NCBI GenBank assembly: GCA_037447655.1
Contig: JBBHKE010001378.1
Coordinates: forward strand, 834,170 to 898,169
From: Zygnema cylindricum
Taxonomy: Eukaryota > Streptophyta > Zygnematophyceae > Zygnematales > Zygnemataceae
DNA length: 64,000 nt
Direction of reading: 5' to 3'
Shown here: in pieces, positions 10,641 to 52,896 of the stretch
Position numbering within the stretch: the first letter of the stretch is position 1
Layout: each line of letters starts with the position of its first letter
Program-made: the position numbers and the translations under genes
Notes under the pieces: generated by a model
What the model was told of the DNA's origin: nothing
The model's input: only the letters and a program-made list of their open reading frames with translations
Database searches by the model: none

Positions 10641-10641
10641 A

Positions 10642-14141: not shown

Positions 14142-14188
<47 letters not shown>

Positions 14189-14223
14189 TGTTCCCTATAG
14201 GTGGGTGAACAATCCAACACTTG

Positions 14224-14254
<31 letters not shown>

Positions 14255-14299
14255 TGACATCGAAGGATCAAAAAGCAACGTCGCTATGAACACTTGGCT

Positions 14300-14334
<35 letters not shown>

Positions 14335-14695: not shown

Positions 14696-14735
<40 letters not shown>

Positions 14736-14751
14736 GAGTCTTCCAAGCCCT

Positions 14752-30497: not shown

Positions 30498-30896
30498 TGT
30501 CAAGCGAGCCGGAAAACATCAGAGGAGGGCCCACTGCCCGGGTAATTGGCATTGAAGTCTTGCAAACAACCTTTTCCAGAATGCGAATGCTCCCCATAAC
30601 CATGCTTGTGCCCAATGCTGCCCGCCTTGTTCCTGTGAGCATGCATGCAAAGGTGGTGATGAGAGCTTGGGAAGGGCGAAAAGATATCCCCTCCCCTTTC
30701 TCCTTCCCCCTCCTGGCCGGGGGAAAAGAGGGAATCCTTAGAGGTGGAGCCTGGTCCTTGATTTCCCCCCCTTTAGTCAACTGTGACTAAGACTTTCGAA
30801 TAATTACCCCCCCAATTCGCAATTCCCGCAGAACTAGAGAGCAGAGGGTTAAGGACGAGGGTCCCAAAAGGAGGGGAGATAAGACTGATGCCAACA
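30498..30896 (-). repeat. Gy1 3' LTR, partial
   Basis: Begins TGTTGGCATCAGTC on the minus strand, as does the Gy2 LTR at 50122. Its distal end is replaced by element E at about 30497. Confidence 0.8.
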
Positions 30897-32340
30897 CTAG
30901 TCGCATCGATCATAGACCAGTACAAAATTCAAGGAGGAAGAGGAGAGGCTTTTGTAGGAGCACAAAGGGGGATCAGCAAAATAGGTAAGGTGGAAAGTAG
31001 GTTTGTCTTCCAATCCCCATAGGTGACAAGGAGCCACATTGATCTGATTTTCCTTGATCCTCCGCCCATCCTTCCCTTCAAGTGTCAAGACCCCCTTATT
31101 GGAGACTTCCACTACTTTCAAAATCACCCTCCCCGCTGAAATGTCCAGAGTATCCTTTTTCTGTTGCATCCGATACACGAAATCCCCGGGCAGAAATCGC
31201 CGTTGCCGCGGGACAAAATTCCCGCTCCGGCGTTGCGAATACCAGAGTTGATCTCGGTGTTGAGCTGCTTGTAAATTCCCCTTGGCTAGAGGCATTTCTT
31301 GGTGAAATACCTTAGCCCTGTCGGCAATCAATTTTTTGACCGTTCCCTTGCTGTCCATCTCCGGAAGGACCAGTGCTTGGGCCGAGGCAGCGCCGGGGAG
31401 GATGGGATGCCGTCTGAACAAAATGAAATATGGACAGTAGGAGTGGAGGGATGGTTGTCGGTTGAATCGGTACCCCATGGCGATCCAAGGCACCCTTCTA
31501 TCCGACTCTCCTAGATCATCTTCCACAGCATATTTACGCAGTGATCGCTTCACTGTTTGCACGCACCTTTCGGCCAAACCGTCGGCTTGTGGGTGGTCTC
31601 GGCTGGTCAACCGGTGGTCGATGAGGCACAATTCCAACAAGTTGGAGAATTCTCCCGCAAATTCGGAGCCTTGGTCGGTCAGAACTTCGGCCGGGGCCCC
31701 AAATTGGGAAAGTACTCTTTGCAAAAATGCGTCCGCAATCGCCTTGGACTCCTTCCTGGGTAAGACCACCAATTCGATCCACTTGGAAAAATGCTCTATC
31801 ATTACCAATACAAAGCGTTTCCCTCGTCTGCTAGTGGGAAGAGGGCCCAGCATATCCAAAGACGATCGATAATACATTCCCCTGATAGAAAGGGAATGAA
31901 GCTGAACACCTCCCTTTTTGTCGAAAGCGGCTTTGACTCGGCACCAAAGGAACACGTCTGCACAATCCGGTTGACTAGGGTCCGCAACCTGTGCCACCAG
32001 TACGATTGTGCGACCAATGAGGTGGTCCGTTTCTGCCCAAAATGGCCACACTGCTGGTGAAGGTTTAAAATAAGAGTCTCCCTGTCGGCCGGAGGAGGAT
32101 CCACTTTCCTCGTCCCATCTGCCCACTTCCTGATTAAGATGCTACTTTCCCATTTGTATGTCGCCATTCGTGTTTGCACTCGAGATAACTACACTCCTGA
32201 CAAATGCGGAAGAGGGAAACCTTGTTGGACAGATTGGAGGGCGTCAGGATCGTTCCAAATATCTTTCCGTCCTGCCGCTATTGGCGCCTGCCCCTCTACG
32301 TCTACAGAGAAAGTTGACATTTCCCCCCCAGATTGAGGAA
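30897..32340 (-). pseudogene. pol: Gypsy integrase (Gy1)
   Basis: Zinc-binding region with LHQQCGHFGQKRTTSLV, then a shift, and the DDE core in one frame: SLDMLGPLPTSRRGKRFVLV, VLTDQGSEFAGEF and DHPQADGLAERCVQTVKR, giving the D, D and E residues. A GPY/F-like C-terminal module follows (LPGDFVYR, GRVILKVVEVSNKGV, IKENQINVAPCHL). No chromodomain; the frame ends at 30897 with a Ser-rich tail, next to the LTR. The zinc part and the core lie in different frames, so the gene is broken near 32130. Integrase joins cDNA ends to the host chromosome. Confidence 0.88.
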
Positions 32341-32840
32341 GCTAAATAAAGGCAGAGGAAGCTCGAATGAGTCCCAAACTGATTTTAGGATCCTCATCAT
32401 GGCGGGCCCTGGTGGAATCTCTAGTGGAAGGGTCAAGATTTTTGCTAAGTGCGTCGACATTCCCATGAATCTCTCCGGCCCGGTGGGTTATGTCGAAGTC
32501 ATATTCCTGCAGTATTAACACCCACCTTGCGAGCTTGCCAATGAGCTTGCTGTTCTCCATAATCCACTTGAGAGGCTGGTGATCCGTGATCAGAGTGAAA
32601 TGGACTCCGTATAGGTATGGTCTGAAGTGTTGGATGGCCCATACCGCCGCCAGTAATTCCCCGTGATAGCTGTTGTAATTCCCCTCCGCTCGGTTATTAC
32701 TCCTATTGGCGTAAGCTACCACATATTCGGCACCAGCATCATCCAGTTGGGCTAAAATAACTCCCAATCCAAACCGGCTCCAATCAGTGTAAAGGAGGAA
32801 GGGTCTTTGGTGATCAGGCATTCGCAGCACTGGGTGTTGC
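32341..32840 (-). pseudogene. pol: Gypsy RNase H (Gy1)
   Basis: Reads LYTDWSRFGLGVILAQLDD (Asp of the TDxS motif present), ELLAAVWAIQHFRPYLYG (Glu), LITDHQPLKWIM (Asp) and DFDITHRAGEIHGNVDALSK, the standard gypsy RNase H blocks. It lies directly after reverse transcriptase with a stop or shift near 32840-32860. The catalytic residues look kept, so decay is recent or mild here. Confidence 0.88.
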
Positions 32841-33985
32841 TTCAGGGAATCCTTGAGGAACTAGAAGGCAATCTGTTGCTCCTCGGTCCACTGCCACTTG
32901 TGGTCTTTCCGCAGCAACTGGTTCAAAGGCTGAGCGTGGCTGCTAAATTTAGGGATGAATCTCTGATAATAGTTAGCCAGGCCTAAAAATGTGCAGCGTG
33001 CAGAGACGTCCTGAGGAGTGGGTAGGGCATCAAGGGCTGCAACTTTGACCATATGGGGACCCAATGTCCCGGGTGTAAATTCGTGTCCCAGGAAAATAAT
33101 TTTCTGCACCCCAAAAATTCCCTTACCCAAGTGACATTTCAAGCCCGCTTCTTAGAGAGCTCGGAGTACAATCTGTATGTGCTCCAAGTGTTCCTCCAAG
33201 GTCTTCGAGAAGATAATAACATCGTCGATATAGCATTGTGCATAGTCAATCCCCCGGAGTGCCTCGTCCATGGCACGTTGGAATTTGGCTGGCGCATTCT
33301 TCAGCGTTAATGGCATGTAGAGCCATTCATACAACCTGGACCCTGCCCAAAAAGCTGTCTTTTCCCGGTGCTTTGGCTCCATCGCGATCTGGTGGAACCC
33401 ATTCTTCATGTCTAGTGTGGAGTAAATGGTGGCCCCGGCCAGCGAGTCAAAAATCTCTTCCGGGGTAGGCATTGGGTATCAGACAGGTACAGTTGCCGTG
33501 TTAAGGATCAGGTAATCTCCACACATGCGAAAGTCTACCATTTTCCCAGATGAGTCCTTCTTGGGTGGGAGAACGGTTGGAGATGCAAATCCATGGAGTC
33601 CGGTACTTTCCTGCACCGATCTTCCTTCTACCAGAGTTTGTACCTTTATCGTGATGAACTCCTTTTCCTTGAAACTGAGAGGGTACTGCTTTTGCCAAAC
33701 AATAGACGTCTCGTCTATTAAATCGATTCGAAAAGGGGTTCCTTTGTAGATGCCTACGTTGGTATCTGACTAGGAGAACACTTGTTTGTTCTTCTCTAAC
33801 AAGTACGAGAGCTGGGACTTTTGCTGATGGTGCAACTGCTCCCCTAAGGTCCAATCCATCTTTCCTGGTTCCACCGCTGCCCATGCCTCCGAGGGTCTAC
33901 CCCAGCGAGATATATTGAATTCCATCCCCACCTGCGGGTCTTCCTCATCTCCTCCCGTTAGAATGCTGCTGCTAACAACTTCCAC
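32841..33985 (-). pseudogene. pol: Gypsy reverse transcriptase (Gy1)
   Basis: From 5': LSYLLEKNKQVFS, a stop near 33770, YKGTPFRIDLIDETSIV, QYPLSFKEKEF, a shift, FRMCGDYLILNTATVPV (a stop follows near 33480), MPTPEEIFDSLAGATIYSTLDMKNGFHQI, EWLYMPLTLKNAPAKFQRAMDEAL, the catalytic box CYIDDVIIF at about 33210-33240, then the connection region FLGHEFTPGTLGPH and FLGLANYYQRF. All domains are present but split by at least three lesions. Confidence 0.9.
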
Positions 33986-34189
33986 TAAGCTGTCCCTTTC
34001 CGAGCCTCCGCTCCCCCCCTCTGAGGAATCCCTTAATTTCGGTTAAATGATGGGACTGGAAAATTTTGATGATAAAAATTGTTTTCTTGCCTCCCTCCCC
34101 CCCTCAAGCTGCAAGTGGGCTTGCGCCACTAACAACTTTGGAGCTTGAAGGTAGCGATTCCTTGATTGCGGAGACTCTAGGCTAGAGAA

Positions 34190-35423
34190 GGCCAGAGAAT
34201 GTTTTATCACCCATGTTATGGCATTTAGATCCATGCTTTGTCAAAGTAGGCTGCTCCGGTGGAGGTCTGAAATACCTGGTGCCGCCGTGCGGGCAGGTTG
34301 GAATCCCATGGCTTGTTCTTGTTCTTTCACCGTTGGCGTTGTCCAAACTCCACTTCCGCTCTCAAATATCATTCCGGCCGCTCCCTTTCGATACGCAATG
34401 TTGTTGGGGAAGGAAACCAATGTTGGCACTGCTCCCCGTGGTGCTCCTGGTTTGTTGCATTGGAAGAACGGAGGACGATCAGCCTTGGTTACTGGAGTGG
34501 CCATCCGTCCTGGCCCTAAAATTTGTTGCAGGGTAAATCTGGGGATCTGTTTGGTGGTTTTGTAAGAGATGGTTCAAGACTGACAGAGGTATCATATTGG
34601 TCCAGTACGCCCGAACTCAGTGAGCCTTGGATCCTAGTTGCCCCGCATTGAGAACAAGTGGAGCTCCTAGAATGTGCTTCACTTTATTTCAGCTATTTGC
34701 GACTTGTTTTCTCTTATCATCTCCCAGGTGGACATTCTCCAAAACGTACCCCACTGGTTGGTCTTGGGACTGCTGCAGCCAAGAAAGTAATTTGATCATG
34801 TGGAAGATGGTTTGACTTCTGCTCTCCTGATGTCCCTCGCCTTTCCCGGCTAGAGAGTATCCTTGACATGGCCATCCTGCAATCACCAAATCCACTCGCT
34901 CCAGCATAGCAAGATGTGGCTTCAAGATATTGTCTATATTTTGCGGAACACTTCGGTGAGATTTGCAGATGGCGGATACCGGAAGTTGTTGGGGATACAA
35001 TTGGTGGAGTTGTTGTAGTCGGTATTCATTGACGGCCTGAGCATCCGGTGAAATTTCCATGGCCACATATGACTCCACTTTGTACCCAGCTTTCAAAACA
35101 GCTTCGAGGTCCGAGGTAATTACAGAAAATAGGGATAATATCCGGAGTCCATAATCCGGGATAGATAATGACACCACTTGTCGATTGAATATTTGTTTTC
35201 GCGCGGAACTTCCGAAGATTCCAACCGAGGTTCTTTTTCCTTCACAAAAACAACTGTCAAGGATTTGTCCACTTCCCGCCGAAGTTTTGTTATTTATAAT
35301 AATCTGTTCTGGTATCCTTCTTCCCATCGCTTGGAAATAGGGAATTGTTATATTATGTTCGCGATATCGGTGGCGCTGGCGAGCAGTTCCGTGGGTGTGT
35401 GAGTGGCATAGACGGGATAACAT
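34190..35423 (-). pseudogene. DNA cytosine-5 methyltransferase domain inside gypsy pol
   Basis: Transfers a methyl group from S-adenosylmethionine to cytosine C5 in the intact family. Conserved motifs occur in family order. I: GLRILSLFSVITSDLEAVLKAG near 35100-35155 (usual FSGIG altered to FSVIT). II: YVAMEIS. IV: DLVIAGWPCQGYS with the catalytic Cys codon at 34866-34868. VI: YVLENV near 34731-34748. VIII: LNAGQLGSKAH, stop, VRAYWTN near 34615-34660. X: TVKEQEQAMGF and LLGQSMDLNAITW near 34200-34310, in another frame. Lesions: TGA after VANS, TGA for the Arg expected after AH, and a frameshift near 34490. It overlaps the protease frame end and precedes reverse transcriptase, so it was probably part of the polyprotein. 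The motif VIII region looks closer to DNMT3/DRM-type enzymes, but this is uncertain. Confidence 0.88.
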
Positions 35424-35890
35424 CTTGCGACAAGAGCATTATCTTTCCCCCTATTCCATAGATCCAGGGGAACCACCACCTTGACTCCTTTTGGATCCTC
35501 AGGATCTAGAACAGTAAACTGCTCCTTCCACACACTTAATCCCCTATTCACCCTTGTCCAAGTGGCCATTCCCAATAAAATCTCAAACTGCTTACCTTCC
35601 ACCACTAAGAAGGGAAGTTGAATTCGGACCTTTTGACCTGCGTCGTCGGCGAACTCTATTAACATAGCTTTGATTTTTTCCTGTACTGGTTGGCTCCCAC
35701 TACTAACAGTACTTAGGCAGATGTCACTGGGGAAGATTTTCGGTCGGAGTTCTTCAGGCATTTGCTACAAAGCCGATGTGGTGATTAGATTTAGGAGTGC
35801 TCCTGTATCGACAACTGCGTCTTGATACCCGCCGTATCCGTTGAGTTTGAAATTCCCCGTCCGGTTGAGAATTAGCGCCACAGATAACGT
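35348..35890 (-). pseudogene. pol: Gypsy aspartic protease (Gy1)
   Basis: Active site DAVVDTGALLNLI with the DTG codons at about 35801-35811, a stop (TAG) soon after TSAL, then LPFLVVEGKQFEILLGMATW, whose ILLG matches the second conserved hydrophobic-Gly motif of retroviral-type proteases. It cuts the polyprotein. The frame runs on about 50 codons past the fold (KDNALVARCYPVYA) and overlaps the start of the methyltransferase frame, so a frameshift lies between 35348 and 35423. Confidence 0.82.
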
Positions 35891-36830
35891 TTTGTAGTCC
35901 CTATCCATCATAGGGGTCTTTGGGTCTGCTGACCAAAAAACGGATCTGGCTTGATAGGCCCGGTGTTTCTCCCCTCCTGAATGGATTTCCTCTCAAGGGC
36001 CTGGATGAGAACTTCTTCCGGCAAGTTATGAGAAGAGGCCAGTGTTTTCACGTGAGTGAGGGTGTAAGGCATGAGATGCCTTACTAACATCAATGCCATT
36101 TTGGAGGAAGAAAGTTGAGTTTTTGGCGACGAAATGGGAGAACGTGGTTCCTCTAGTTTTTCTTGCTCCCCCCCTTGCTTCCTCACTCTCTTTGTCGGAT
36201 TCCGGTTCAGGGGGCGTTTCTGATGTTTTATCTTTCTGGCGTTCCGCCGAACATCATTCGAACCAATCTTGGTTTTTTTCGTTTTTCCTCCACTTCTGCC
36301 TGTTTTTCCATCTCCTTTTGCTTAGTTGTCTTGTAATTCTCGAATTTGGGAGGCAATTTCTTTACAACCGGGGGAGGGGGATTTGTGGGTTTGATTCCTA
36401 GACTTGTTTTGTCGTTCACAATAACGGCCTAGGGGGTGAATGAAAAAGGTCTAGTGGCCTACCTGTTATGATCTCCTTGAGCTAGTCTTAGTTTGTCTCT
36501 CTTCTACTCTGATGTTGAGTTATGTAGTTGCCTGCGACTATCTCCCACGCCAACATTTCATTCTCCGAAAATGAAAGTTCGTGCGTGATGCGCTTTTGGA
36601 GGTTCGATATCCCATCCCATTACATCAACATCGTCTCCGCCAGCCGCGGATTCATTTTCAAGTTCCGCCAGCTTTTTGTAGTAGTTCAAGTTTTCTCCGG
36701 TGGAGTTTGTGAGTGGTTGTGAGAGCACGAGTTCGGGAGGGCAATCTTAAACGCAAGGCTGCCAATTCTGCAGCCATTGCGGCCAGTACTTGGCTCTGGT
36801 GTTAGATGATAATCTCCAGGGTGAGTCTTG
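35891..36830 (-). pseudogene. gag: Gypsy gag-protease linker (Gy1)
   Basis: Open pieces in changing frames. One reads MALMLVRHLMPYTLTHVKTLASS and LPEEVLIQALERKS, helical in character. Another is rich in Lys/Glu/Pro (KTTKQKEMEKQAEVEEKRKK). The position between the zinc knuckle and the protease supports a Gag/protease linker. No conserved domain recognised. Confidence 0.5.
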
Positions 36831-38060
36831 CTCAACCTGGTGTCGGTTGTTCCGGTTCTTCTATGGTGCGACGTCCCCAAGTGTAAAGAAGCTGGAGAGG
36901 GAGAGGGTTTACAACAGTTTCACCTTCGCCGGTAAACAGTGCACATTGCATCATCTCCTTCGTGACCCCATTCTTTTGGAAACATTGCCCCTCCTTGTGA
37001 CCCATAACACCGCAAGCCTCACACTTAGAGCCCTCGGTGGTGTAATTGCCCTTTAATTCATAGGACATTTGCGCATCATCGAATTTAGGAAGTATGATTT
37101 GCCGCAACTGGGCTTATGACATTTTTGCAGTTTCTAACCGAGGAGTCGGACAGTAATTATCTTTGTTCAACGGTGTTTTGTCTTCGACCCCCCTCCTTGT
37201 TTCCTTTCTTGCTGCTTTTTGGTCCTTTCACCTCTCTCCTTTTCGCATTTTTAATGCTTGAGGGCCAATCCTGGTTTGAGCTTCCGGGGGCAGCGCTTCC
37301 ATCCATGACCTATTTGTTGACAATTCAAACACTTGTACAAGAAGACACGGTCATCGGCCCCCTTGGCAGGTTCGGATCCGCTATCCACCACCTATTTTCC
37401 TTTAAGCTTCCGCAAAGCTAGAAGTTCTACCGACTCCTCATTGTTATGAGGCATTTTTCCGGCAAATCCTGCAAAGTTTCCCTTGGTTTTGCCTGTTACC
37501 GCTTTTTCCCTGACTTCACAATGAAGGAATTGGTCATAAATTTTCATAACGACTCGCGAAATTTCCTTAGCAGATGGATTGATATCTTGGATAGTCTGGC
37601 TTGCAATCCAATTGTCGAGTGTAGTCTGCTTTGTGGGCCCGAATGAATTCTGGAGTGCGATGAAATATTTGGTGGCCATAGTTGGAAGATCGATGGTTCA
37701 AATTTTTGTCTTTTAACAAAGTCAGGACAGTCTATTGAAAAGAGTTTGTGGTGTCTCACTTTTCAGACACCGGAATTCCGTAAACTCCTTGATAGCACAT
37801 TCATTCCTCTCGGTGTAGAGGAGTCTCTTGATGTTTAAAACAGTAGTGCAGGGTGTATGGTTGGCAACCATTCTGGTGGCAACTTGGGCTGCTTGTATTA
37901 CTTGCAGATGGTTCATATAAGCTTGCCCCTGGTCCATTAATTTCATGTTATTGGTGTAGGTGAGGGTGAGGGGGGCGGCTGCAGCTGCAGCCAAGTCTGC
38001 CTCTCCTTATAAACCGCATCCAGAACCGGGTCCGAAATCTTGATGCTAGGCGCCATCAAG
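36831..38060 (-). pseudogene. gag: Gypsy Gag capsid-like region and zinc knuckle (Gy1)
   Basis: The upstream part reads VATRMVANHTPCTTVLNIKRLLYTERNECAIKEF and, in the next frame, NWIASQTIQDINPSAKEISR and MKIYDQFLHCEV; length and position fit a gypsy capsid, though no clear capsid signature can be named. Near 37000-37045 a CCHC knuckle CEACGVMGHKEGQC is clear, which binds the element RNA. Several frameshifts split the region (near 37400, 37700 and 37110). Confidence 0.7.
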
Positions 38061-40255: not shown

Positions 40256-40756
40256 TGCAATGGATGACAGGAAAAGAGGTCTAACTTACAACCTTAACTC
40301 CTCCAAAGAAGGTGAGGTGCTCTAAACTGAAGCTCCTATTCCCTGTAAGCCGAAAGAGACAGGTTGTTGTTCTAGTACAGTCACTCTCTTTTCAAAGTGT
40401 GACAAAGATTCTCTCAAAATCCACTATTCTAGTAGAAAAGATTCTGGTAGTTAACCCCGAAGGAAAACCAACCGAAGCCCCAAAAAGGACTACCAAAGAA
40501 AAAACAAAGATACTTCCACTCAGAATAATGAAAAGATAAAATAAATATATGTTGTCTCAAAATTAACAATATCACCTTGACCTAGAAAATAGAGAATAAA
40601 GGTATAATTTGGAATGATAGCAAACAAGCTCAACATACCCCCAAAACGTCACGCTGAGAAGAAGAGGAGATAAAATCTCTCTCGAAGACACCGAAACAAG
40701 TAAAGCCTCTTTAACTCTATGATTTCCGAACATGGAACCGACAAGACCCTTCCCGG
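40256..40756. other. Unclassified sequence between Gy1 and A2
   Basis: No gene or LTR boundary recognised; AT-rich with direct contact to a truncated A2 LTR at 40757. It could include the remains of the Gy1 5' leader. Confidence 0.35.
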
Positions 40757-41433
40757 ACATGGCCTAAATGTCGACACGTGGTATATCCGTATTCGCTCCC
40801 TTAATCCTCGGAGATGCCGCGATCCAATGTCATTCCGCCACGTGTCATCCGATGTGGCGATGACCACAAACCGCCGAAATCCTCTTCCGAGATCTTCGCG
40901 TTTAATCCCGGCCATCCGATTAAATGCAGATTTAATCGTAGCCGTAATAAATACATACGCGGTATTCGTTTCACTAAAGAAATAAATGCGCGGTATTGGT
41001 TTCTTATCTGTATTGTAATCCGTACTTTTACATTAATGGATCTATGTTTTAGTAAATAGTTTGAGTTAAATGAATAATCCTACGTGTAAATGTTTAATTA
41101 ATTATCAAACCCTATAATACGTAACATTAGGTCTAAACTTAACGGATAAGGCTACCGGCTGCTTACCATTTGGCAGGTACCAGGATCAAATCCTGGAGGC
41201 ATCACATATTCTTTTAGTAAATAAACCCCTAATGGTAAATAAACTAATATTTATATCCCATAAACCTTTGGATAGCCTAGGTAGCCATGGCTCTAGCTTC
41301 CTCTCTAATTTCTCAGTGACTGCGACAAGTTTGAGAGTTGAAAAGAGAAGTTAGAGGTACAGTGCCTCGGCTTCTTTCTATATTTCTATTTAGACCTAGA
41401 AAATACTTTAAAAAATGACCATTAATTTCTACA
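40757..41433 (-). repeat. A2 3' LTR, truncated
   Basis: Homology to the 5' copy starts at gacatggcctaaatg. Includes gccacgtgtcatccgatgtggc at 40837-40858 (inverted G-box-like pair). The polypurine tract is at 41434-41447. Confidence 0.88.
41128..41215 (+). other. tRNA-like block in A2 3' LTR
   Basis: A-box-like ttaacggataaggc near 41139-41152, B-box-like ggatcaaatcc at 41183-41193, T4 at 41212-41215. Confidence 0.7.
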
Positions 41434-41446
41434 CTCCCCTTATTTT

Positions 41447-43401
41447 CTAGTCAATCTTTAATTTCAAACCACACTTCTCCTTGCAGAAAATTAGCTTAGG
41501 GGAAGGCACAAGTTTGGTCATCATATCTGCTACCATCTCACTATCTGGTCGGTTCTCTAAACTGATTATTTTGTTTTTTACTTTCTCTCTAACAAAGCTG
41601 AGTCTAATGTCCATGTGTTTGGCTTTAATATGATGTTTAAGATTGGCAGAAATAGCGATTGCTACCTGATTATCACAAAAAAAATTATGCACACCACTCT
41701 TAAGGTGACCAAGCTCACCAAGCAAAGACTTGACTCACATCAATTCTTTTACACCAGAGCAAGAGGCCATAAACTCAGCCTCCATGGTGGACCGAGCAAT
41801 AACTTTTTGTTGTTTGCTACTCCAACAGCAAGCCCCATCACCCACATATAATACATATCCAGAAGTGCGTCTCCTCATCGGAGCATCACCATAACTGGCA
41901 TCACTCCAAGTAGTGATGTCAGTATTCTCCCCACCCAAATGCAACCATAAATCCCTAGTTCCTATCAAATATCTAAGGACTCTCTTAGCTGCCTCCCAAT
42001 TCCTCTTAGTGGGAGCATTTAGACTTCTACTCAGCACTCCTAAAGCTGCAGCTAAATTCGGCCGGGTACAATTCATAAAATAGATTAGACTTCCCACTAC
42101 TTGCCTATAAGGAATAGTCTTAATGAACTTTTGTTCTTTAGGAGATAATTCCTCGTCTAAGACTATAACTCGTTCTTCCTCACTCCCCTTACTTCCCTTC
42201 TTCAACTCCATTGGAGTTGTACAACTATTAGCTTTATCCATCTGAAATTTTTCAAGCATATTCTCTATTGCTTGTTTTTGAGTCAATCTTATAATCTTTC
42301 TTTTCCAGTCTCTTTCTACTTGAATTCCCAAAATATATTTTGCTTCCCCCATATCCTTCATTTCAAATCTCCCCTTAAGATCGGTTTTCATTTTATTAAT
42401 TTTTTCCATTGATTTACTTAAAACAAGCAAATCATCAACATAAATTGCAATAAATATAAAACCTTCCTCATCTTCGAAAACATAGATTGAGTGATCTGAG
42501 CTGATTCGGATATATCCTAGACTGGTAAGAAACTCATTAAGCTTCTTATTCCACTGTCGAGGCGCCTATTTCAAACTATAAAGAGATTTAATCAGCCGGC
42601 ATACCTTACTCTCCTCTCCCTCCTCCACAAACCCTTCGGGTTGTCGCATGAAGATCTCTTCCAATTCTCCATGCAAAAAGGCTGTCTTGATGTCCATCTG
42701 GTGCACTTCCATGTCTTCCGCTGCTGCCAGACTGAAAAGTATGCGGATGGAGGGAAATTTGACGACCGGGGCAAAGGTTTCATCGTAGTCAATTCCCTCC
42801 TTTTATGTAAATCCCTTTACCACTAATCTGGCCTTGTAGCGCTCGATTGTGTTATCAGGGTTCAGTTTTAATTTGAAAACCCACTTACAACCGATTGGTT
42901 TTCGGTTAGGTGGACAATCCACCAGCTCCCAAGTATCGGCTGCCATAATTGAGGCCATCTCCTCATTGATGGCTGTCTTCCACCGGTTTCTTTCTGGACA
43001 CGTCATCGCCTCTCCATAAGTCTGCGGTTCACCTTGATGAGATAGTTTTGTTACCTTGTCATTAACCTGTTTTTCTTGCAATCTTTTGCTACTTCTCCTC
43101 CCCCTATCAAAATCTGAGGTCGGAATAGATGGTTCTCGTGGATATTTTCGAAAACAATCTTGGCTTCTCCCCTATCCCTTGATTCCGAATCAATTTCCAC
43201 CACGTATTCCACTTCGGGTAGAGTTTTCACTAGAGTTTCCATAGCCGAGTCCTTTTCGGTCTGATTTGTACCTGCAAGAATGTCATCTTCTCTAAAACCT
43301 GGATAGTTAGGAAGCTCAAAGTCATCGGAATTTTTTGACTCAAATCTGATTTTTACTGACTTTGTATATTTGAAGGGATCCACAGACTTTCTTTCATCCA
43401 T
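41447..43401 (-). pseudogene. pol: Reverse transcriptase and RNase H (A2)
   Basis: Copia blocks on the minus strand: KWVFKLKLNPDNTIERYKARLVVKGFT, a stop near 42803, MDIKTAFLHGELEEE-type sequence in a shifted frame near 42640-42700, QAPRQWNKKLNEFL, the YVDD box region near 42430-42445, then a long open stretch with FEMKDMGEAKYILG, RQVVGSLIYFMNCTRPN, TTWSDASYGDAPM, STMEAEFMASCSGVKELM. A stop lies near 41735; the rest (FFCDNQVAIAI, ADMMTKLVPSPK) is open to 41447. Several stops and shifts. Confidence 0.9.
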
Positions 43402-44160
43402 AACTACTAGATGATTTACTAAGATTATATCTTCCCTTTTTAGATCGTAAACTCGAGATGGTTTAACATCCTCATCATATCCTAATAAGTATCTCGGTTT
43501 TCGTTTAGGATCTAGCTTCCAATTAGAACGAGCTGGTAGGGCACTTTAGCCAATCCCCAAATATCTGTGTGTACTAGATCTATAATTTTTTCTCCCTTAT
43601 AGGTGGTTGTTTTAGGAAAGGGTAATCTGTTTGCTTTACCTTAAGCACATCCACTACAATCACTTATATTATCACTCTCACTGAATTGAATCCCTTCCAC
43701 CACTCCCATCTTTTTTATCTCTCTTAACTTATCTAACTTCACATGCCTAAGCCTCTTATGCCACATTATAATATCATGAACACCAGCATAATAAAGTTTC
43801 TTCATTTCATTACTTAAAATCAGCCTAAACATCCCATGGCTACCTTTCTCAGCAATGAAATAGACATCCTCCTCAAAACTAGCAGTAAAGACTCCTTCCC
43901 TAGTGCTAGTAAAAAAACCCTTATCATCTAATACAGATGTAGAGATGAGGTTTTTGTTCATCTCCGGGATAAACAATACATCGGAGAATGTTACTATGGA
44001 TGTCTTTCCTTCTACTAACACTTTCACATCTACCGATCCTACAAGAGTAGTGGTGACTATCCTCACATCCCCGTACTCTATCTCTACGGTGGGAATCTTT
44101 CTTATCTTAGTGAACGGGTGCCTATCCTTACACATGTGCATGGAGGCACCTGAATCTATA
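43402..44160 (-). pseudogene. pol: Protease and deleted integrase (A2)
   Basis: Protease WIIDSGASMHMCKDRH near 44125-44170, then the integrase zinc domain IMWHKRLRHVKLDKL (His kept, Gly changed to Arg) and CSGCA followed by a TAA near 43641. After DLVHTDIWG the catalytic core is missing: at about 43535 the sequence jumps to NWKLDPKRKPRYLLGYDED, deleting roughly 0.5 kb that encodes the DDE residues. The C-terminal KREDIILVNHLVVMDE remains. Confidence 0.88.
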
Positions 44161-45290
44161 ATCCAACCTGCTTCACCTTTCAATCCACCGGAAGCACATT
44201 TCTGCCTTCGTGGAATTTCGACCTCGTTTATCGCCTCCAACTCCTCATCCAAAAGGAGCTCATCGTCCTCGTCCTCGGATTCCGCCTCATGTACTTGTGT
44301 CACAAGGGCCTTTTTCTTTCCTCTCGGGGTACCACCGGTCAACCCCTCCTGTAACCGAAGCTCGGTTAGCTTAGTGCACTCAGCCATATAGTGCCCTAAT
44401 TTCTTACAAAAATGACATGAACCTTTGGGAGCCCTTAGTCCGAACTCGTCGGCCTGATTTTTTTGCTCCCTTCCCCTATAGTTTCCGACCGGTTTCTTAG
44501 AATCTTTGTTCATCCTATCAATCAAAGTTGCCAAGGCTTAGCCACTCTTTCCTCCCCTTCGGATCTCAATCTTATTCTCCCGAACGAGAATCATCCCTTC
44601 CACAGAGTTCCACATCCACCTTGAGTCCGGCAAGTCGTGCACACAGTTGATTATGTTCTCAAACTCATCGGGTAACTTCATCAGTAAACAGATAACCTTT
44701 TCTTTTTCACTAAAATATTTTCTCACACTCTGTAACTTGATGAACAGTGTAGCAAGCTCATTGCAAAAATCCAACATTTTCCCCATTTTGTATATATATT
44801 CCTTAACTTTCTGATCAGCCAACAGTTGTTGCTGTATCGTACCACATCGGTACATCTCTATGGGAGCCATACACAGATCGGATGACCTTTCTACCTGCAA
44901 ATGAGGACATGCAAGTCCTTGAGTAAGATAGCGTACGATGAAGTGCTTTGGCGCCATATTGATGAAATCCCAAGTTTGAGTATCATTCTCCTCGTTCCTC
45001 GGAATAGGTGACATGAATGCTGAACCAGTTGCTATTGGTGTGGTCATCTCCTTCTCCGCTCCTTTGTCCACCACCTCTCCTTCCTTTGTCTCCTCCGTTG
45101 AAGATGGATTTGCTTTCTTTGTGAATCTGCTTCTTTTAAACCCTAGAGGAATTCCAAGACTTGATGGACGCCCCAATTGTCCACTCAGTATCCCCCAAAA
45201 CCTTTTTTCGCATAAAGCTCCTATCATCATACTTTCCCAATATATGAAGCCAATTCCATTAAAGATTGGTACCCTAGAGGGTGGGCCCAA
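44161..45290 (-). pseudogene. gag: Copia gag (A2)
   Basis: Open from MGPPSRVPIFNG (45290) to near 44538, where a stop (ALA*QL region) breaks it, then open again with CHFCKKLGHYMAEC, an intact CCHC knuckle near 44375-44420, and the acidic ESEDEDDE stretch. The LTR-borne ATG used by A1 is ATA here (tatagagg for tatggagg), so normal initiation is lost. Confidence 0.88.
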
Positions 45291-45294
45291 AACT
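45280..45294 (-). other. A2 primer binding site, mutated
   Basis: Minus strand AGTTTTGGGCCCACC, abutting the LTR. Confidence 0.65.
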
Positions 45295-46364
45295 TGAAAC
45301 TCTGAGACCTCTATAAGTCCTCAGAGTGGACAGCTTCGAAGAAGCCTCTACGATAACCCTGACCCCTTTTTGTTCCAGCAAGAACAACTACCACCTTGGC
45401 AGACAAAAAATTCTGACCAATTACACCCCCGTGAAGGCAAGACTCCCTTGGGTCGATAGCAAAAAGAATCTCTGAATTTGCTCCCCTCAGCAGTAAGTTA
45501 TGGAGGGTCAAAGTTGACCATTTGTACAAAAGCTCTCTGGGAGAGAGGGTCCTATCTCCTAATTTTTCTAAGTCCTATCTCTCTCACAGACTCTATCTAC
45601 TGATGTACGGAGCCAATCAAATTACACTTCCGTACACAAAGGTCCGCTGCCGGTGTACTTTCTGTACGAACATTGTACGACATGGCCTAAATGTCGACAC
45701 TTGGTATATCTGTATTCGCTCCCTTAATCCTCGGAGATGACGCGATCCAATGTCATTTCGCCACGTGTCATCTGATGTGGCAATGACCACAAACCGCTGA
45801 AATCCTCTTCCGCGATCTCGGCGTTTAATTCTGGCCGTCCGATTAAATTCACATTTAATCGTAGCCGTAATAAATACATAAGCGGTATGCGTTTCGCTAA
45901 AGAAATAAATGCGCGGTATTGGTTTCTTATCCGTATTGTAATCCGTACTTTTACATTAATGGATCTATGTTGCCCGTAAACAGTTTCAGTTAAATGAATA
46001 ATCCTACGTGTAAATGTTTAACTAATTATCAAACCATATAGTACGTAACATTAGGTCTAGACTTAACGGATAAGGCTACCGGCTACCGGAAGCTTGCCGT
46101 CCGGTAGGTACCAGGATCAAATCCTAGAGGCATAACATATTCTTTTAGTAAATAAACCCCTAATGGTAAATAAACTAATACTTATATCTCGTAAACCTCT
46201 GGATAGCCTAGGTAGCCATGGCTCTAGCTTCCTCTCCAATTTCTCAGTGACTGCGACAAGTTTAAGAGTTGAAGAGAGAAGTTAGAGGTAGACTGCCTTG
46301 GCTTCTTTTTATATTTCTATTTAGACCTAGAAAATACTTTAAAAAAGGACCATTAATTATTACA
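45295..46364 (-). repeat. A2 5' LTR (1070 bp)
   Basis: Same length as the A3 5' LTR. Contains gccacgtgtcatctgatgtggc near 45760 (inverted G-box-like pair), GTAC cluster near 45605-45680, tRNA-like block, and gtagccatggct with cagtgactgcgacaag near 46212-46260. Confidence 0.92.
46067..46146 (+). other. tRNA-like block in A2 5' LTR
   Basis: A-box-like ttaacggataaggc at about 46063-46076, long taccgg/ccggta arm, B-box-like ggatcaaatcc at 46114-46124, T4 at 46143-46146. Confidence 0.72.
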
Positions 46365-46651
46365 CCCATCCTAATACAGACCTAGAAAATACTCAAATAT
46401 CAAGAGGCTACGCCGCGCTCTGCCGGTCAGAGGTTCGAATCTTGCCGGACTCAACCTTTTGTTGAGATTGATATTGGTCACTCTTTAGTCTTGCCTGCTG
46501 AGTTAGGTTAGCCATGGCTCATCCACTCTCTCTATCCCTCAATGACTACAACAAGTATGGTGGGTAGAGAGAGGAGGTGGAGGCAAGTTGTCCGCCTTTA
46601 TCTTTTCCTATTTACACCAATAAAATACCACATAAATCTAATAATTTCAAC
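46365..46651 (-). repeat. Mosaic of copia LTR end fragments (H)
   Basis: 46365-46404 matches the outer end of an S1-type LTR (cctagaaaatactcaaatatcaa). 46405-46651 is the outer end of another LTR type ending tttcaaca, with a tRNA-like tail (B-box ggttcgaatct at 46432-46442, T4 at 46457-46460) and gttagccatggct / tgactacaacaagt near 46507-46555. Confidence 0.7.
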
Positions 46652-46654
46652 AAT

Positions 46655-47240
46655 ATAAATGGCTCTACATGCCATTCGGGCTAAAGAATGCACCAACCAA
46701 ATTCCAAAGTGCCATGGACGAGGCGCTCCTCGGAATCGACTGTGCACGGTGCTATATTGACGATGTTATTATCTTCTCAAAGATATTCAAGGAACACTTA
46801 GAGCACATAGATTGTACTCCTAGCTCTCCAAGCAGCTGGCCTGAAATGTCACCCGGGTAAGGGAAATTTTGGGGTGCAGAAGATTGTTTACCTGGGACAT
46901 GAAGTTACACCCGGGAGAGTGGGTCCCCATATGGTCAATGTGGTCGCCCTTGATGCCCTTCCCCCTCCTCAAGACGTCTCTGCACTCCGCACATTTTTAG
47001 GCCTGGCTAACTACAATCGGAGGTTTATCCCTGAATTTAGCAATCACGCTCAGCCTTTAAACCAGTTGTTTTGGAAGGACCAGGAATGGCAGTGGACGGA
47101 GGAGCAATAGATTTCTTTCCAGTTTCTTAAGGATTCTCTTAAGCAACACATTGCTCTGGGTGCATGATCATCAGAAACCGTTCCTCTTTTACACTGATTG
47201 GAGCCGGTTTGGATAATGAGTTGTTTTAGCTCAATTAGAT
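46655..47240 (+). pseudogene. pol: Gypsy reverse transcriptase, partial (Gy2)
   Basis: Starts at WLYMPFGLKNAPTKFQSAMDEALLG, the catalytic box CYIDDVIIFSK at about 46750-46782, a frameshift near 46860, then VYLGHEVTPGRVGPH, FLGLANYNRRFIPEF and the beginning of RNase H (LYTDWSRFG) near 47190-47215. Everything upstream is missing. It breaks into solo LTR S2 at LAQLD. Confidence 0.88.
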
Positions 47241-48272
47241 TGTAGAAATTAAAGGCTATTTTAGTATTTTCTAAGTTTTGTAAAATGCAGAAAAAAGAAG
47301 CAAAGGCAGTTTGCCTCTAACTCCTCTCTCCAGCTCCCACACTTGTCGCAGTCACTAAAAGTTGGAGAGGGAGATAGAGTCGTGGCCGCCTATGCTATCA
47401 TGACGAAGACAGAGATTAGATTGGTAGATTTACCAAAATAGTTATTGACGAATCCGGGATTTGAACATGGTACCTGCCGTCTCGTAAGCCTCTAGTCGGT
47501 AGCCTTAGCCAATTAGACTAGGATCAAGGTTATACGATATAGGGTTTGATAATTACATAAATCTCTACACGTAGGCTATTTCATTTAACGTAATATTTGG
47601 ACATAGAAACAGTTTGTAATGTACGCCGTACGGAATATATGAAACAGATACCGTGCAATTTGTTTCGAAGGCGAAAAAAATATCGCGCATGTATTTTTGA
47701 CGGCTACAATTGAAATCTGGTTTAATCGGACGGTCGCAAAGCATGCCGAGATCGTGGAATAGTTTTTTGGCAGTTTGCGGTCAACATCATATCGAATGAC
47801 ACGTGGCACAACCATATTGGAATACGGCATCTCTTGGGATTTCAGGAACAAATCCAAAAATGACATGTGTCGACTTTTTGGCCATGTCGTAATATGGCCG
47901 TACTGAAAGTAAACCTGCACTTGTACCTTTATGTACAATACAGTATTATGATCGGTGCCGTACTTCAGTAGCTAGAGTTTATAGAGAGATACGACTTAGA
48001 AAAATTTGATAGATTGGACCCTCTCTCCCAAAGAGCTTCTAAACAAAAGGTCAACTTTGACCATTAATAACTTACTGCTCAAGGGAGAAAATTTAGAGAT
48101 TCTTTTTGCTATCAACTCAGGGGGGCCTTCCCTTCATAGGGTTGAAGGTGGTCAAAGTTTTTTTCTACCAGGGTGGCAGTTATTCTTGCTAAAACACAAA
48201 AGGGTCAGGGTTATCCTAGAGGCTTCGTGTGAGCTGCCTACTCTGAGGACCTATAAAGGTCTCAGAGTTGCA
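47241..48272 (+). mobile_element. Solo copia LTR S2 in gypsy RNase H
   Basis: 1032-bp LTR (TGTAGAAATTAAAGG... to ...GAGTTGCA) flanked by TAGAT (47236-47240) and TGGAT (48273-48277), a 5-bp duplication with one change. It splits the RNase H codons for LD and DAGAEYVVAY. Contains gacacgtggcac near 47797, aatcggacggtcgc near 47727 and a tRNA-like block. Confidence 0.9.
47435..47521 (-). other. tRNA-like block in S2
   Basis: Minus strand: A-box-like ttggctaaggctacc near 47498-47512, B-box-like tgttcaaatcc at about 47458-47468, T4 at 47435-47438. Confidence 0.7.
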
Positions 48273-48720
48273 TGGATGATGCGGGTGCCGAATATGTGGT
48301 GGCTTACGACAGTAGAAGTAGCAAGCGAGCGGAGGGGAATTATAGCAGCTACCATGGGGAATTACTGGCAGCTGTCTGGGCCATTCAACATTTCAGACCA
48401 TATATGTACGGAGTTCACTTCACTCTGATAACAGATCACCAATCTCTCAAGTGGATTATATAGAACAGTAAGCTAACTTGCAAGCTCGCCAAATGGGTGT
48501 TAATACTGCAAGAATATGATTTCGACATAATCCATTAGGCCGTAGATATCCATGGGAATGCCGATGGACTAAGCAAAAATCCTAACCCTTCCACCAAAGA
48601 TTCCATCGAGGCTCGTCACGATGAGGATCCCGAAATCAGTTTGGGACTCATTCGAGCTTCCTCTGCCTTTATTTGGCTTCCTCAATCTGGGGGGGAACTG
48701 TGAACTTTCCCTGTAGACGT
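48273..48720 (+). pseudogene. pol: Gypsy RNase H (Gy2)
   Basis: Continues after S2: DDAGAEYVVAYDSRSSKRAEGN, ELLAAVWAIQHFRPYMYG, LITDHQSLKWII then a TAG at about 48461, CKLAKWVLILQEYDFDI and a stop near 48537 in place of the HRAGEIH motif, then NADGLSKNP. The catalytic Asp/Glu positions of the later blocks are present but the frame is closed. Confidence 0.85.
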
Positions 48721-50020
48721 GGAGGGGTAAGCGTTGATAGAGCCAGGATGAAAGACATTTGGAATGACCCCAATGCACTTCAGTCTATCCAACACGGTTC
48801 CCCCCTTCCGCATTTGTCTCAATTTCAATTATCCCATGTTGAAACTCGAATGGCGGCATACGAGTGGGAAAAAGGGATCTTAATCCGGAAATGGGCAGAC
48901 GGGACGAGGAAAGTGGTTCCTCCACCGGCCGATAGGGAGACTCTTATTTTTCGCCTCCACCAATAATGTGGCCATTTTGGGCAAAAATGGACCACCTCCC
49001 TGGTCACAGATCGTACAGGTGGCACGGATTGCGGACCCAAGTCAACCGGATTGTGTAGAAGTGTTCTTCGAGAGACCGATTCAAAGCAGCTTTCAACAAA
49101 AAGGGAGGTGCCCACCATCATTCCCTTCCCATCCGTGGAATGTTTTATCGTTGGTCTCTAGACTTGCTAGGTCCTCTCCCCACAAGCAGACGAGGTAACC
49201 ACTTTGTATTGGTAATGATAGAGCATTTTTCCTAGTGGATCCAATTGGTGGTCTTACCCCAGAAAGAGTCCAAGGCTATTGCGGACGCATTCTTGCAAAG
49301 AGTGCTGTCCCGATTTGGGGCCCCATCCGAAGATCTATCCAACCACAGCTCCAAATTTGCGGGAGAATTCCCCAACCCCTTTGAATTGTGCCTCATCGAC
49401 CACATGCTGACTTGCCGAGACCACCCAGAAGCCGACGGTTTGGCCGAAACGTGCCTACTGAGAGTCAAGCGGTCACTCCGTAAAAATACTATCGAATAGG
49501 ATTTAGGAGGGTGTGATAGAAGGGTGCCATCGATTGCCATGGGGTTCAGTTTTAGCAGGCATGCCTCCCTCCACTCCTACAGTTCTTATTTCATTTTGTT
49601 CGGATGACATCGAATCCTACCCGCCGCTGCCTCAGCCCAAGCAGTGGTCTTTCCGAAAATGGATAGCAAAGGGACTGTCGAGAAACCAATTGCAGACAGG
49701 GCCAAGGTATTTCACCGGGAAATGCCTCTATCCATTGGGAAATTTATAAGCACCTCAGCACCGAGATCAACTCTCGTATTCGCAACGCTAGAGCGGGAAT
49801 TTTGTCCTGCGGCAACAACAATTTCAACTCGAGGATTTCGTGTATCACATGCAACAGAAAAGGGACAGGCAGGACATTTCGGCGGGACTGGTGATCTTAA
49901 AAGTGGTAGAGGTTTCCAATAAGGGTTTTTTGACACCAGAAGGAAAGGACGGTCAAAAAATCAAGGAGAATCAGATCAATGTAGCTCCTTGTCACCTCCG
50001 GGGATTGGAAGACTAACTTA
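48721..50020 (+). pseudogene. pol: Gypsy integrase (Gy2)
   Basis: Pieces in several frames: WEKGILIRKWADGTRKVVPPPADRETLIFRLHQ, a stop, VARIADPSQPD, then VVLPQKESKAIADAFLQRVLSRFGAP, where the TDQGSEF of Gy1 has become SNHSSKF, so a catalytic Asp is lost. DHPEADGLAE follows with the Glu kept. The C-terminal GPY/F-like part is near 49850-49990. Clearly non-functional. Confidence 0.85.
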
Positions 50021-50121
50021 CTTTTCACCTCACCTATTTTGTTGACCCACCTTCATGTTCCTCCGCCTGCCTCTTGTCATCGTTTCCGGGTCCTCTATTC
50101 GTCAATGACTGATGTGAACAG

Positions 50122-50670
50122 TGTTGGCATCAGTCCAGCCTTCCATCCTCTTGGGACTCTCGTCCTAAATCCTTTGCCCTAAGGTTTTGCAAGAACTGCG
50201 GGATTAGGTGGGTAATTATTTTTATGTCTTTGTCACGGTTGACTAAGAGGGGGGGAAATCAAGACACCGACTCAATAACCAAAGGCCCACCCCCTTTCTT
50301 CGGCCAGGTGGGGAAAAGAAGGGGGAGGAGATATCTTTTCGCCCTCCCAATGCACTCCTCCTTATTTTGCATTCATGTTTCATGGGAGAAATGCAGGAAG
50401 CAGTGGGCATAATCATTAGAATGGGAAGCATTCGCATTTTGGGGGTTATTTGTAGGACTCCAATACCAAAAACTCTGGGCAGTGGGCCCTCCTCTCACGT
50501 TTCTTAAGCACGCCCAACAGTTGTCAAGCACATGTGCATTACCAACACTTCTTTATCTCACCAATGATTTAAGGGCCCTTTTTCCCCTATACGGTCATCA
50601 AAGTACGGAGGAAGGAGTGTACCCCGCCGGACAAGATTCTTCTATTTTCTAAACTAAGCGGAACGTACTC
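50122..50670 (+). repeat. Gy2 3' LTR
   Basis: Starts TGTTGGCATCAGTCC like the Gy1 LTR and shares cagtgggccctcctct with it (50480-50495; complement at 30513-30530). The right end is obscured by an LTR fragment at about 50672. Confidence 0.7.
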
Positions 50671-50721: not shown

Positions 50722-51791
50722 TGTAGAAATTAATGGTCATTTTTTTAAGTATTTTCTAGGTCTAAATAGAAATATAGAAAGAAGCCGAGGCAGTCTACCT
50801 CTAACTTCTCTCTTCAACTCTCAAACTTGTCGCAGTCACTAAGAAAATGGAGAGGAAGCTAGAGCCATGGCTACCTAGGCTATCAAGAGGTTTACGAGAT
50901 ATAAATATTAGTTTATTTACCATTAGGGGTTTATTTACTAAAATAATATGTGATGCCTCTAGGATTTGATCATGGTACCTGCCAGACGGTAAGCTGCCGA
51001 TAGCCGTTAGCCTTATCTGTTAAGTCTAGACCTAATGTAAAGTACTATAGGGTTTGATAATTAGTTAAACATTTACAAGTAGGATTATTCATTTAACTGA
51101 AACTGTTTACGGAAGACATAGATCCATTAATGTAAAAGTACGGATTACAATACGGATAAGAAACGAATACCGCGCATTTATTTCTTTAGCGAAACGAATA
51201 CCGTGTATGTATTTATTACGGCTACGATTAAATGTGAATTTAATCGGACGGCAGGAATTAAATGCCGAGATCGCGGAAGAGGATTTCGGCGGTTTGTGGT
51301 CATCCCCACATCGGATGACACGTGGCGGAATGACATTGGATCAAGGCATCTGCGAGGATTAAGGGAGCGTATACGGATATACCACGTGTCAACATTTAGG
51401 CCATGTCGTACAATTTTCATACAGAAAGTACACTAGCAGCTGTAATTTTGTGTACGGAAGTGTAATATGATTGGCTCCGTACATCAATAGATAGAGTCTA
51501 TGAGAGATATAAGACTTGGAAAAATTAGGAGATAGGACCCTCTCTCCTAGAGAGCATTTGTACAAAAGGTCAACTTTGACCCTCCATAACTTACTGCTTA
51601 GGGGAGCAAATTCAGAGATTCTATTTGCTATCGACTCAAGGGAGTCTTGCCTTCACGAGGTGAAGTTGCTCAGAGTTTTTTGTCTACCACGGTGGCAGTT
51701 GTTCTTTCTAAAACACAATGGGGTCAAGGTTATCCTAGAGGCTTCTTGGAAGCTGTCCACTTTGAGGACTTATGGAGGTCTCAAAGTTTCA
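50722..51791 (+). repeat. A3 5' LTR
   Basis: TGTAGAAATTAATGG... to ...AAGTTTCA. gacacgtggcgg near 51317 and accacgtgtcaa near 51381; the gag ATG at 51772 is inside the LTR. Confidence 0.92.
50940..51030 (-). other. tRNA-like block in A3 5' LTR
   Basis: Minus strand: A-box-like taacagataaggc near 51011-51023, B-box-like near 50962-50972 with one change, T4 at 50940-50943. Confidence 0.6.
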
Positions 51792-52860
51792 GGTTAAAGG
51801 CCCACACTCTAGGGTACCAATCTTTAATGGAACTGGCTTCATATACTGGGAAAGTATGATGATAGGAGCTCTATGCGAAAAAATGTTTTGGGGGATAGTG
51901 AGTGGACGGTTGGGGCGTCCATCAAGTCTTGGAATTCCTCCAGGGTTTGGAGGAACCAGATTCACCAGGAAAGAGGACCCATCTTCACCGGAGGAAACAA
52001 AAGAAGGAGAGGTGGTGGACAAAGGAAAGGAGAAGGAGACGACCACACCAATAACAACTGGTTCGATATTCATGTCACGTATTCCGAGGAATGAGGAGAA
52101 TGATACTGAAACCTGGGACTTCAACAATATGGCGGCAAAGCACTTCATCCTACTCCATCTCACTCAAGGACTTGCATGTCCTCATTTGCAGGTAGAAAGA
52201 GCATCTGATCTTTGGATGGCTCTCATAGAGATGTACCGAAGTGGTACGATTCAGCAACAACTGTTGGCTAATCAGGAAGTTAAGGAATATGTATACAAAG
52301 GGGGGAAAATGTTGGATTTTTGCATTGAGCTTGCTACACTCTTCATGGAGCTAGAGAGTGCGGGAAAAGGTTTCACTGAAAAAGAAAAGGTTAAGTGTTT
52401 ACTGATGAAGTTACGTGATGAGTTTGATAACATAGTCAACCGTGTGCAGGACTTGCCGGACTCAAGGTGGATATGGAACTGAGTGGTAGGGATGATTCTC
52501 GTTCGAGAGAATACGATTCAGATCCAAAGGAGAGGAAAGAGTGGTCAAGCCTTGGCAACTTCGACCGATTGGAGGAACAAGGATCCTCGGAAACCGGTCG
52601 GAAACTATAGGGGAAGGGAGCAGAAAAATCAGGCCGACGACTTTGAACCAAGGGCTCCTAAAGGTTCATTTTTGTAAAAAACCGAGGCACTATATGGCAG
52701 AGTGCACTAAGCTAACCGAGCTTCGGTTAAAGGAGGGGCAGACCGGTGGTACGCTGAGAGGAAAGAAAAAGGCCCTTGTGCCACAGGTACATGAGGCGGA
52801 ACCTGAGGACGAGGAGGATGAGCTCCTTTTGGATGTTGAGTTGGAGGCAAAAACAAGGTC
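51772..52860 (+). pseudogene. gag: Copia gag (A3)
   Basis: Starts at the LTR-borne ATG (MEVSKFQVKG, then RVPIFNGTGFIYWESMM), open to a TGA at 52480 (RWIWN*VVGM). Reopens in the same frame (ILVRENTIQI) but a 4-base loss in the zinc knuckle near 52666 removes its first Cys-His part (leaving HFCKKPRHYMAEC in another frame). The basic and acidic tail follows. Lesions differ from those of A1, so the two copies decayed independently. Confidence 0.88.
51792..51806 (+). other. A3 primer binding site, mutated
   Basis: GGTTAAAGGCCCACA, 12 of 15 positions agree with the intact site. Confidence 0.65.
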
Positions 52861-52896
52861 AAAATTCCACAAAGGCAGAAATGTGCTTACGGTGGA

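Follow-up and report, generated by a model that had tools for sequence, protein, structure and literature searches.

The window analyzed here, a stretch of 64,000 nucleotides from Zygnema cylindricum, holds one dead copy of an abundant family of Ty3/gypsy retrotransposons in which a C5-cytosine methyltransferase (MTase) is an integral domain of the Pol polyprotein. Judged from the copies compared, the family almost certainly has the anatomy gag-protease (PR), a conserved stop codon, and then a DNMT3-type methyltransferase followed by reverse transcriptase (RT), RNase H, integrase (INT), and a PHD-like zinc finger. The overall explanation that we consider very probable is that of a defunct gypsy copy whose family would have used readthrough of a UAG codon, with a methyltransferase that was made at the level of Pol and marked the cDNA or the insertion site.

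The methyltransferase domain of the window copy

All features of the element lie on the minus strand of the window, and the coding order is PR-MTase-RT-RNaseH-INT (Table 1). An open frame of 249 amino acids (34689–35438) matched the Pfam family PF00145 with an E-value of 9.3e-10, above the Pfam cut-off, and its top matches in the PDB were DNMT3C (6.5e-6) and DNMT3A (2.4e-4); a chance similarity to methyltransferases is excluded by these E-values. Using the methyltransferase of a relative as tblastn query, 34536–35150 was matched at 45% identity and 34148–34492 at 40%. The original prediction, which had read methyltransferase motifs on the same strand between a gypsy protease and reverse transcriptase, is borne out by these Pfam, PDB, and tblastn matches. 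Its span, 34190–35423, does contain the methyltransferase, but the boundaries were imprecise, with errors between some tens and a few hundred bases: the domain extends about 40 bases beyond 34190, 35151–35347 is a linker, and 35348–35423 holds the last part of the protease frame.

The domain is broken by in-frame TGA codons at 34689–34691 and 34617–34619 and by a frame change between approximately 34536 and 34492. Motif VIII is found in the same frame beyond the first in-frame stop, the part containing motifs IX and X lies in another frame within 34241–34573, and a stop at 34241–34243 falls inside motif X. The window element is a dead copy.

Copies elsewhere in the genome

A search of the genome (352,776,454 bases in 2689 contigs) with the 249-amino-acid frame yielded at least 150 matches, scored from 1602 first-look candidates; 50 of them, counted by hand, had no stop codon within the matched stretch. 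Twenty of the matched places were taken as loci of 10 kb. The first part of the methyltransferase domain was present in all 20, and PR, MTase, and RT were found by tblastn in that order in 16. Among the remaining four, L023 and L035 had no PR match, L027 no RT match, and L037 neither; no other domain order was seen in any of the 20 loci examined. Since all of them were selected by their methyltransferase match, this sample is uninformative on relatives without the domain.

Two copies, L032 and L033, which are 95% identical in Pol, consist of single open frames of 1520 and 1525 amino acids that hold matches to PF00145, RVT_1, RNase H, and integrase, as well as a match to the PHD finger (PF00628; E-values of 0.0044 and 2.4e-4, respectively) that in both cases stays below the gathering score. 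Subfamilies carrying the methyltransferase are 72–76% identical in Pol. The order PR-RT-RNaseH-DDE integrase and the gypsy-type RT place the elements in Ty3/gypsy, and the best PDB match of the related database protein P0002 was the Gag-Pol of Ty3 (5.2e-102). The claim that the methyltransferase had been translated as part of Pol thus holds in that the domain is integral to the two long frames, but not in the sense of an uninterrupted Gag-Pol frame, because a conserved UAG separates it from PR.

Class of the methyltransferase and conserved residues

The catalytic cysteine is conserved in 24 of 25 copies, and the flanking proline and glutamine of motif IV in all 25; in motif VI the glutamate occurs in 24 copies and the asparagine and valine in every copy, and the arginines of motif VIII are kept in 20–21. 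With the DNMT3 de novo methyltransferases the domain shares the linear order of motifs (collinear with DNMT3A in three stretches), the AHR of motif VIII, and the fold, which was predicted for the relatives with DNMT3A/B as best profile and fold matches. The 50 fold matches listed are DNMT3 chains, a CpG-specific methyltransferase (4dkj), HhaI, and HaeIII, which does not exclude families outside this list. PCN in motif IV is the rule in the DNMT3 family. The gypsy domain differs from DNMT3 by its location in a polyprotein and by having PCQ at the place where DNMT3A has PCN, and because of this motif it is classified here, from its residues, as DNMT3-type rather than as canonical DNMT3. DRM was rejected as class, since a permuted motif order would be expected and the order observed is linear. 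No DNMT1, CMT, or DNMT5 was recognised among 57 PDB matches at E ≤ 0.01, an absence from a list that does not exclude these classes. Motif IV varies further among the related database proteins described below: it reads ECQ, with the cysteine and ENV/ENT kept, in P0012, P0014, P0020, P0022, P0025, P0026, P0031, and P0033, and PCE in P0030.

A conserved UAG codon between protease and methyltransferase

From 40 of our own loci, 11 duplicates of others were dropped, and L018 and L037 among the 29 left were unaligned across the site, so that 27 loci with 28 sites remained for the count of stop codons. The codon is TAG at 26 of the 28 sites, TAA in the window copy, and TAT in L025; in L017 and L035 the TAG was read by eye, because a displaced printout of the context had led the script to miscount these two. 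It is followed by CAA at 26 sites, and the bases thereafter, TTCCCTATTTCCAAGCGGTGG, vary little. Over the nine codons starting at the stop, third-position identity is 0.89 compared to a median of 0.50 (four groups, 17 copies), and this segment ranks second of 261, the first-ranking one beginning a single codon later. The TAG with its context has 170 exact occurrences in the genome, and a reversed control has one. In the less broken copies the same frame is used on both sides of the stop.

A CAR YYA context 3′ of UAG is reported, in the accessible part of the source, as essential for readthrough in tobacco mosaic virus (PMC2754532), and the context found here, CAA UUC, fits it in five of six positions. 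According to the same portion of that source, the viral signal and its candidate counterpart in RIRE2, a gypsy element of rice, likewise combine UAG, CAA UUY, and a short conserved 3′ context (PMC2754532); the present signal differs in having C as sixth base and in the location of the stop between protease and methyltransferase, and readthrough is here inferred from sequence. The conserved in-frame UAG together with its CAR-YYA-like context suggests that the codon is probably read through and that the methyltransferase would then head the readthrough product.

Relatives and phylogenetic analyses

The window domain and P0002, used as database queries, retrieved 3 and 35 proteins, respectively, of which 36 were distinct. 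A further retroelement domain (zinc knuckle, PR, RT, RNase H, integrase, or PHD) was matched in 30, and the methyltransferase alone in six (P0007–P0010, P0017, P0034). Nine proteins are named as Marchantia polymorpha (P0005, P0011, P0015, P0016, P0017, P0019, P0023, P0029, P0034), two of which, P0015 and P0019, have the methyltransferase followed by RT. Both MTase and RT were matched in 17 of the 36; the methyltransferase precedes RT in nine and follows RNase H in eight, where it stands before the integrase in the seven that have one. An alignment-based search, in which the 7995 best candidates were scored, added four more relatives (P0038–P0041, one being the domain alone), a DRM of Penstemon (2.1e-11), plus four additional, distant PF00145 proteins.

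Trees of the relatives were built for MTase and RT, with outgroup rows (a DRM and a bacterial one) that proved too distant for rooting. The proteins with the order RNaseH-MTase-INT form one clade in both the MTase tree (support 98/95, including two partial proteins) and the RT tree (100/99). For the 25 rows shared by the two trees, with P0035 and the DRM and bacterial rows left out, 14 of 22 splits were in common, compared to a mean of 0.31 and a maximum of 3 in 500 label shuffles. On the basis of these shared splits, the MTase and RT modules appear to have largely travelled together. The nine Marchantia-named proteins, the congruent trees, and the abundance of genome matches suggest that the association of methyltransferase and gypsy is wider and older than one green alga.

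Two proteins stand apart. In P0035 the methyltransferase stands ahead of an RT with just 26% identity to the P0002 RT, which may reflect an independent capture in a different gypsy clade. In P0033 a G-patch match lies between methyltransferase and integrase, and the C-terminus after the PHD finger resembles by eye another Rossmann-type methyltransferase, with no Pfam match in that part.

Split direct repeats, selection, and host methylation

The complete layout A1-coding-B1-A2-B2 was found in the copy C1042. One outer end reads TGTCAAGC (TATCAAGC in C1042) and the other GCTCGACA (GCTCGAAA in L030), and five B1–A2 junctions read CTCGACA-GC-TGTCAAGC. DIRS-like split repeats are thus combined with gypsy domains, seen as a whole in C1042 and at the B1–A2 junctions in five loci; the window copy retains only a B repeat. 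An affiliation to the DIRS order was rejected because the integrase is of the DDE type (PF00665 plus an H2C2 integrase domain, with no phage-type integrase, i.e., tyrosine recombinase, among the listed domains). No target-site duplications were evident by eye at the single complete copy. The two A repeats are 97.8% identical in C1374 and 83% in C1042, a difference from which insertions probably span a long time.

Pairwise dN/dS values were calculated after Nei and Gojobori with our own script, using pairs with dS between 0.05 and 1.5 that are not independent of each other. The medians were 0.23 for PR (12 pairs), 0.25 and 0.26 for the two parts of the methyltransferase (76 and 42 pairs), 0.17 for RT (86), 0.27 for RNase H (30), and 0.10 for INT (24), all well below 1 and pushed upward by decayed copies. 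In the window copy, transitions were counted at 19 of 292 CG, 35 of 379 CHG, 35 of 1247 CHH, and 28 of 2008 A/T sites. Rates at CG and CHG exceeded those at A/T in all 11 focal copies, for CG in L032 barely so (1.2 vs. 1.1%). CHG methylation is a plant-type mark, and since this excess of C-to-T change fits deamination of methylated sites, a host system of plant type has probably methylated the copies; the excess says nothing on the action of the element's own enzyme.

Comparison with known systems

Retrotransposons that captured a methyltransferase were, as the original prediction stated, known from algae of the plant lineage: KnitGypsy-Dnmt3 of Klebsormidium nitens is a gypsy element with a Dnmt3 methyltransferase (de Mendoza et al., 2018; PMC5890265), and with this published case the kind as such is known. 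As far as the accessible text goes, KnitGypsy-Dnmt3 shares with the present family the LTR Gypsy affiliation, an intronless, Dnmt3-related, non-rearranged methyltransferase in the Pol frame (here in the two open copies), a DIRS-like repeat layout with Gypsy domains (legend of Fig. 4), purifying selection, and methylation of the copies in the host (PMC5890265). The comparison is one of published descriptions: the accessible main text does not contain the words PHD, Marchantia, or protease and describes no domain order or stop codon (PMC5890265), and no named database match came from Klebsormidium. The SymbioDIRS-Dnmt3 and SymbioLINE-Dnmt elements of Symbiodinium also carry cytosine methyltransferases, and SymbioDIRS likewise has two domain orders in Pol and domains that methylate CG in yeast, but their backbones, DIRS with a tyrosine recombinase or LINE, are unrelated to gypsy (PMC5890265, same portion).

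Some DNMT3 members are reported from LTR elements, with Copia named, and from DIRS elements (PMC12344493, accessible part), and such transposons are said to be absent from land plants, such as tracheophytes (PMC6338049, accessible part); the corresponding part of PMC6453930 held nothing further on retrotransposon enzymes. In the open-licence titles and abstract openings covered, no report was found of a UAG before the domain, of the PHD finger, or of Marchantia copies. Beyond what the accessible part of PMC5890265 describes are the conserved UAG, the two gypsy domain orders, the terminal PHD-like finger, and the occurrence in a land plant.

Proposed function and alternative explanations

In the proposed mechanism, ribosomes would mostly stop at the UAG and release Gag-PR, and a minority would read through to Gag-PR-methyltransferase-Pol. 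The methyltransferase would be made and packaged at the level of Pol, next to RT, and would deposit 5-methylcytosine de novo on freshly made cDNA or at the site of insertion. The domain was likely a true methyltransferase in the active period of the family. The most likely benefit would be a cDNA that already carries a ‘self’ mark when it reaches the nucleus or chromatin, which is conceivable though rated at somewhat less than even; the enzyme apparently does not spare the copies from host methylation. Retrotransposons are normally targets of DNA methylation, and one with its own de novo methyltransferase would invert this usual role. The UAG signal would offer a testable handle on the amount of the enzyme and on its partners.

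Several observations weigh against this account. The 28 sites may include alleles or nearly identical copies, as the similar scores of L014 and L016 hint, and TAA replaces the CAA after the stop in two of them (L019, L040). Readthrough is not general, because P0003 and P0012, which are from other species, have PR and MTase in a single frame uninterrupted by a stop. Eight of the 22 splits differ between the MTase and RT trees. The full A1-B1-A2-B2 arrangement was seen in one copy of three with flanks; C544 shows A1-coding-B without A2-B2 in the stretch fetched, and in C1374 3.7 kb separate two B repeats before A2. With regard to translation, no strong RNA structure follows the stop in five copies folded (z-scores of −1.32, −1.14, −0.20, −0.82, and 0.70) and the context, with C instead of A as sixth base, falls short of a full CAR YYA. 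These last two points, together with a methionine close to where the domain begins in L032 and L033, would also suit a UAG that ends Gag-PR and a methyltransferase-Pol that is started separately, by reinitiation or internal entry; this is unlikely in view of the common frame on both sides in less broken copies and the near-invariant, CAR-YYA-like 3′ context. Weaker constraint is indicated by the dN/dS values of the methyltransferase, which are above those of RT and INT, and no methylation of yeast DNA by the Klebsormidium domain was observed in an assay that its accessible description calls inconclusive (PMC5890265). Both would be compatible with a domain retained as a fold that binds nucleic acid or SAM but does not methylate, e.g., a chaperone or a module for Pol maturation, as would ECQ in place of PCQ in some relatives (P0012, P0014, P0020, P0022, P0025, P0026, P0031). 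Such a role is rather improbable given the near-invariant catalytic cysteine and ENV, the motif VIII arginines, and the predicted DNMT3 fold.

Concerning the origin of the domain, late insertion of a methyltransferase gene of the host, or of a processed copy, into one gypsy element, i.e., chance nesting, is extremely improbable, since the position is the same in 16 of 20 copies and across the subfamilies, the domain occurs in polyproteins of other species, and the MTase and RT trees are congruent. Descent from a modification enzyme of phages or bacteria instead of a eukaryotic DNMT3 might be suggested by PCQ instead of PCN, long branches, and the distance of the outgroups, but is very unlikely with DNMT3A/B as the best profile and fold matches and with only distant hits in a scan of viral contigs (29 loci, mostly short stretches at 23–50% identity). 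A more serious alternative, although held to be somewhat the less probable, is that separate captures gave rise to PR-MTase-RT and RNaseH-MTase-INT. The nearly even split between the two orders, the formation of a single clade by the latter in both trees, and the very distant RT of P0035 are in its favor, whereas one type of methyltransferase is found throughout, and the deep congruence with RT in these unrooted trees also fits one capture and a later move within Pol. The most far-reaching version, a single very old DNMT3 capture common to liverworts and plant-lineage algae, with B-GC-A joined-end replication and yet insertion by a DDE integrase, particles loaded through UAG readthrough, and cDNA methylated before insertion so as to pass as host DNA, all kept for hundreds of millions of years, is doubtful as a whole; if true, it would amount to an element-encoded epigenetic passport.

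Features of the element and its surroundings in the window

Table 1. Features of the methyltransferase-bearing gypsy copy in the window.
Feature	Position	Strand	Evidence
gag zinc-knuckle region	36904–37092	minus	tblastn with gag zinc-knuckle segment of P0003, E 9.6e-7
Aspartic protease (PR), one in-frame stop	35456–35896	minus	tblastn with PR of P0003, 37%, E 1.1e-21
Stop codon TAA between PR and methyltransferase	35348–35350	minus	followed by CAATTCCCTATTTCCAAGCGATGG at 35324–35347
DNMT3-type C5-cytosine methyltransferase domain	34148–35150	minus	Pfam, PDB, tblastn; class taken from relatives
Motif IV PCQ, catalytic cysteine	~34863–34871	minus	placed from PDB alignment
Motif VI ENV	~34731–34739	minus	placed from PDB alignment
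Ty3/gypsy reverse transcriptase, two in-frame stops	33047–33682	minus	tblastn, 70% identity to P0002
RNase H	32432–32884	minus	PF17917 (1.5e-34) and tblastn
DDE integrase, matched in two frames	31380–32125	minus	PF00665 (5.3e-11) and tblastn
C-terminal PHD-like zinc finger remnant, three stops	30807–30960	minus	tblastn with C-terminus of L032
B repeat of split direct repeats	30500–30773	minus	blastn with 3′ end of L030, 88%

In addition to the tabulated evidence, the window RT matched PF00078 at 33152–33478 (E-value 5.2e-20), and an open frame covers 35348–35764 in the protease area. The PHD-like remnant makes up the left portion of a match at 30807–31379 with 77% identity. The family match ends at 30498, adjoining a copia element, and the methyltransferase-bearing copy sits between copia insertions. 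Three related copia-type elements, approximately 88–93% alike in long matches, are located at 7484–13931, 40756–46365, and 50722–57198. Another stretch of the methyltransferase-bearing gypsy family, likewise broken, occupies 46654–50669 on the plus strand, with RT/RNase H and integrase to the 3′ end, and is interrupted by a copia LTR at approximately 47238–48272. A fragment of large-subunit rRNA lies at 13671–14742 on the minus strand (Rfam RF02543, 844 bits); its last approximately 260 bases overlap the copia repeat at 12884–13931, as if copia had inserted into a fragment of rDNA, and by eye its sequence resembles that of green plants. Positions 1–2174 form a dense tandem repeat array with many self-matches.
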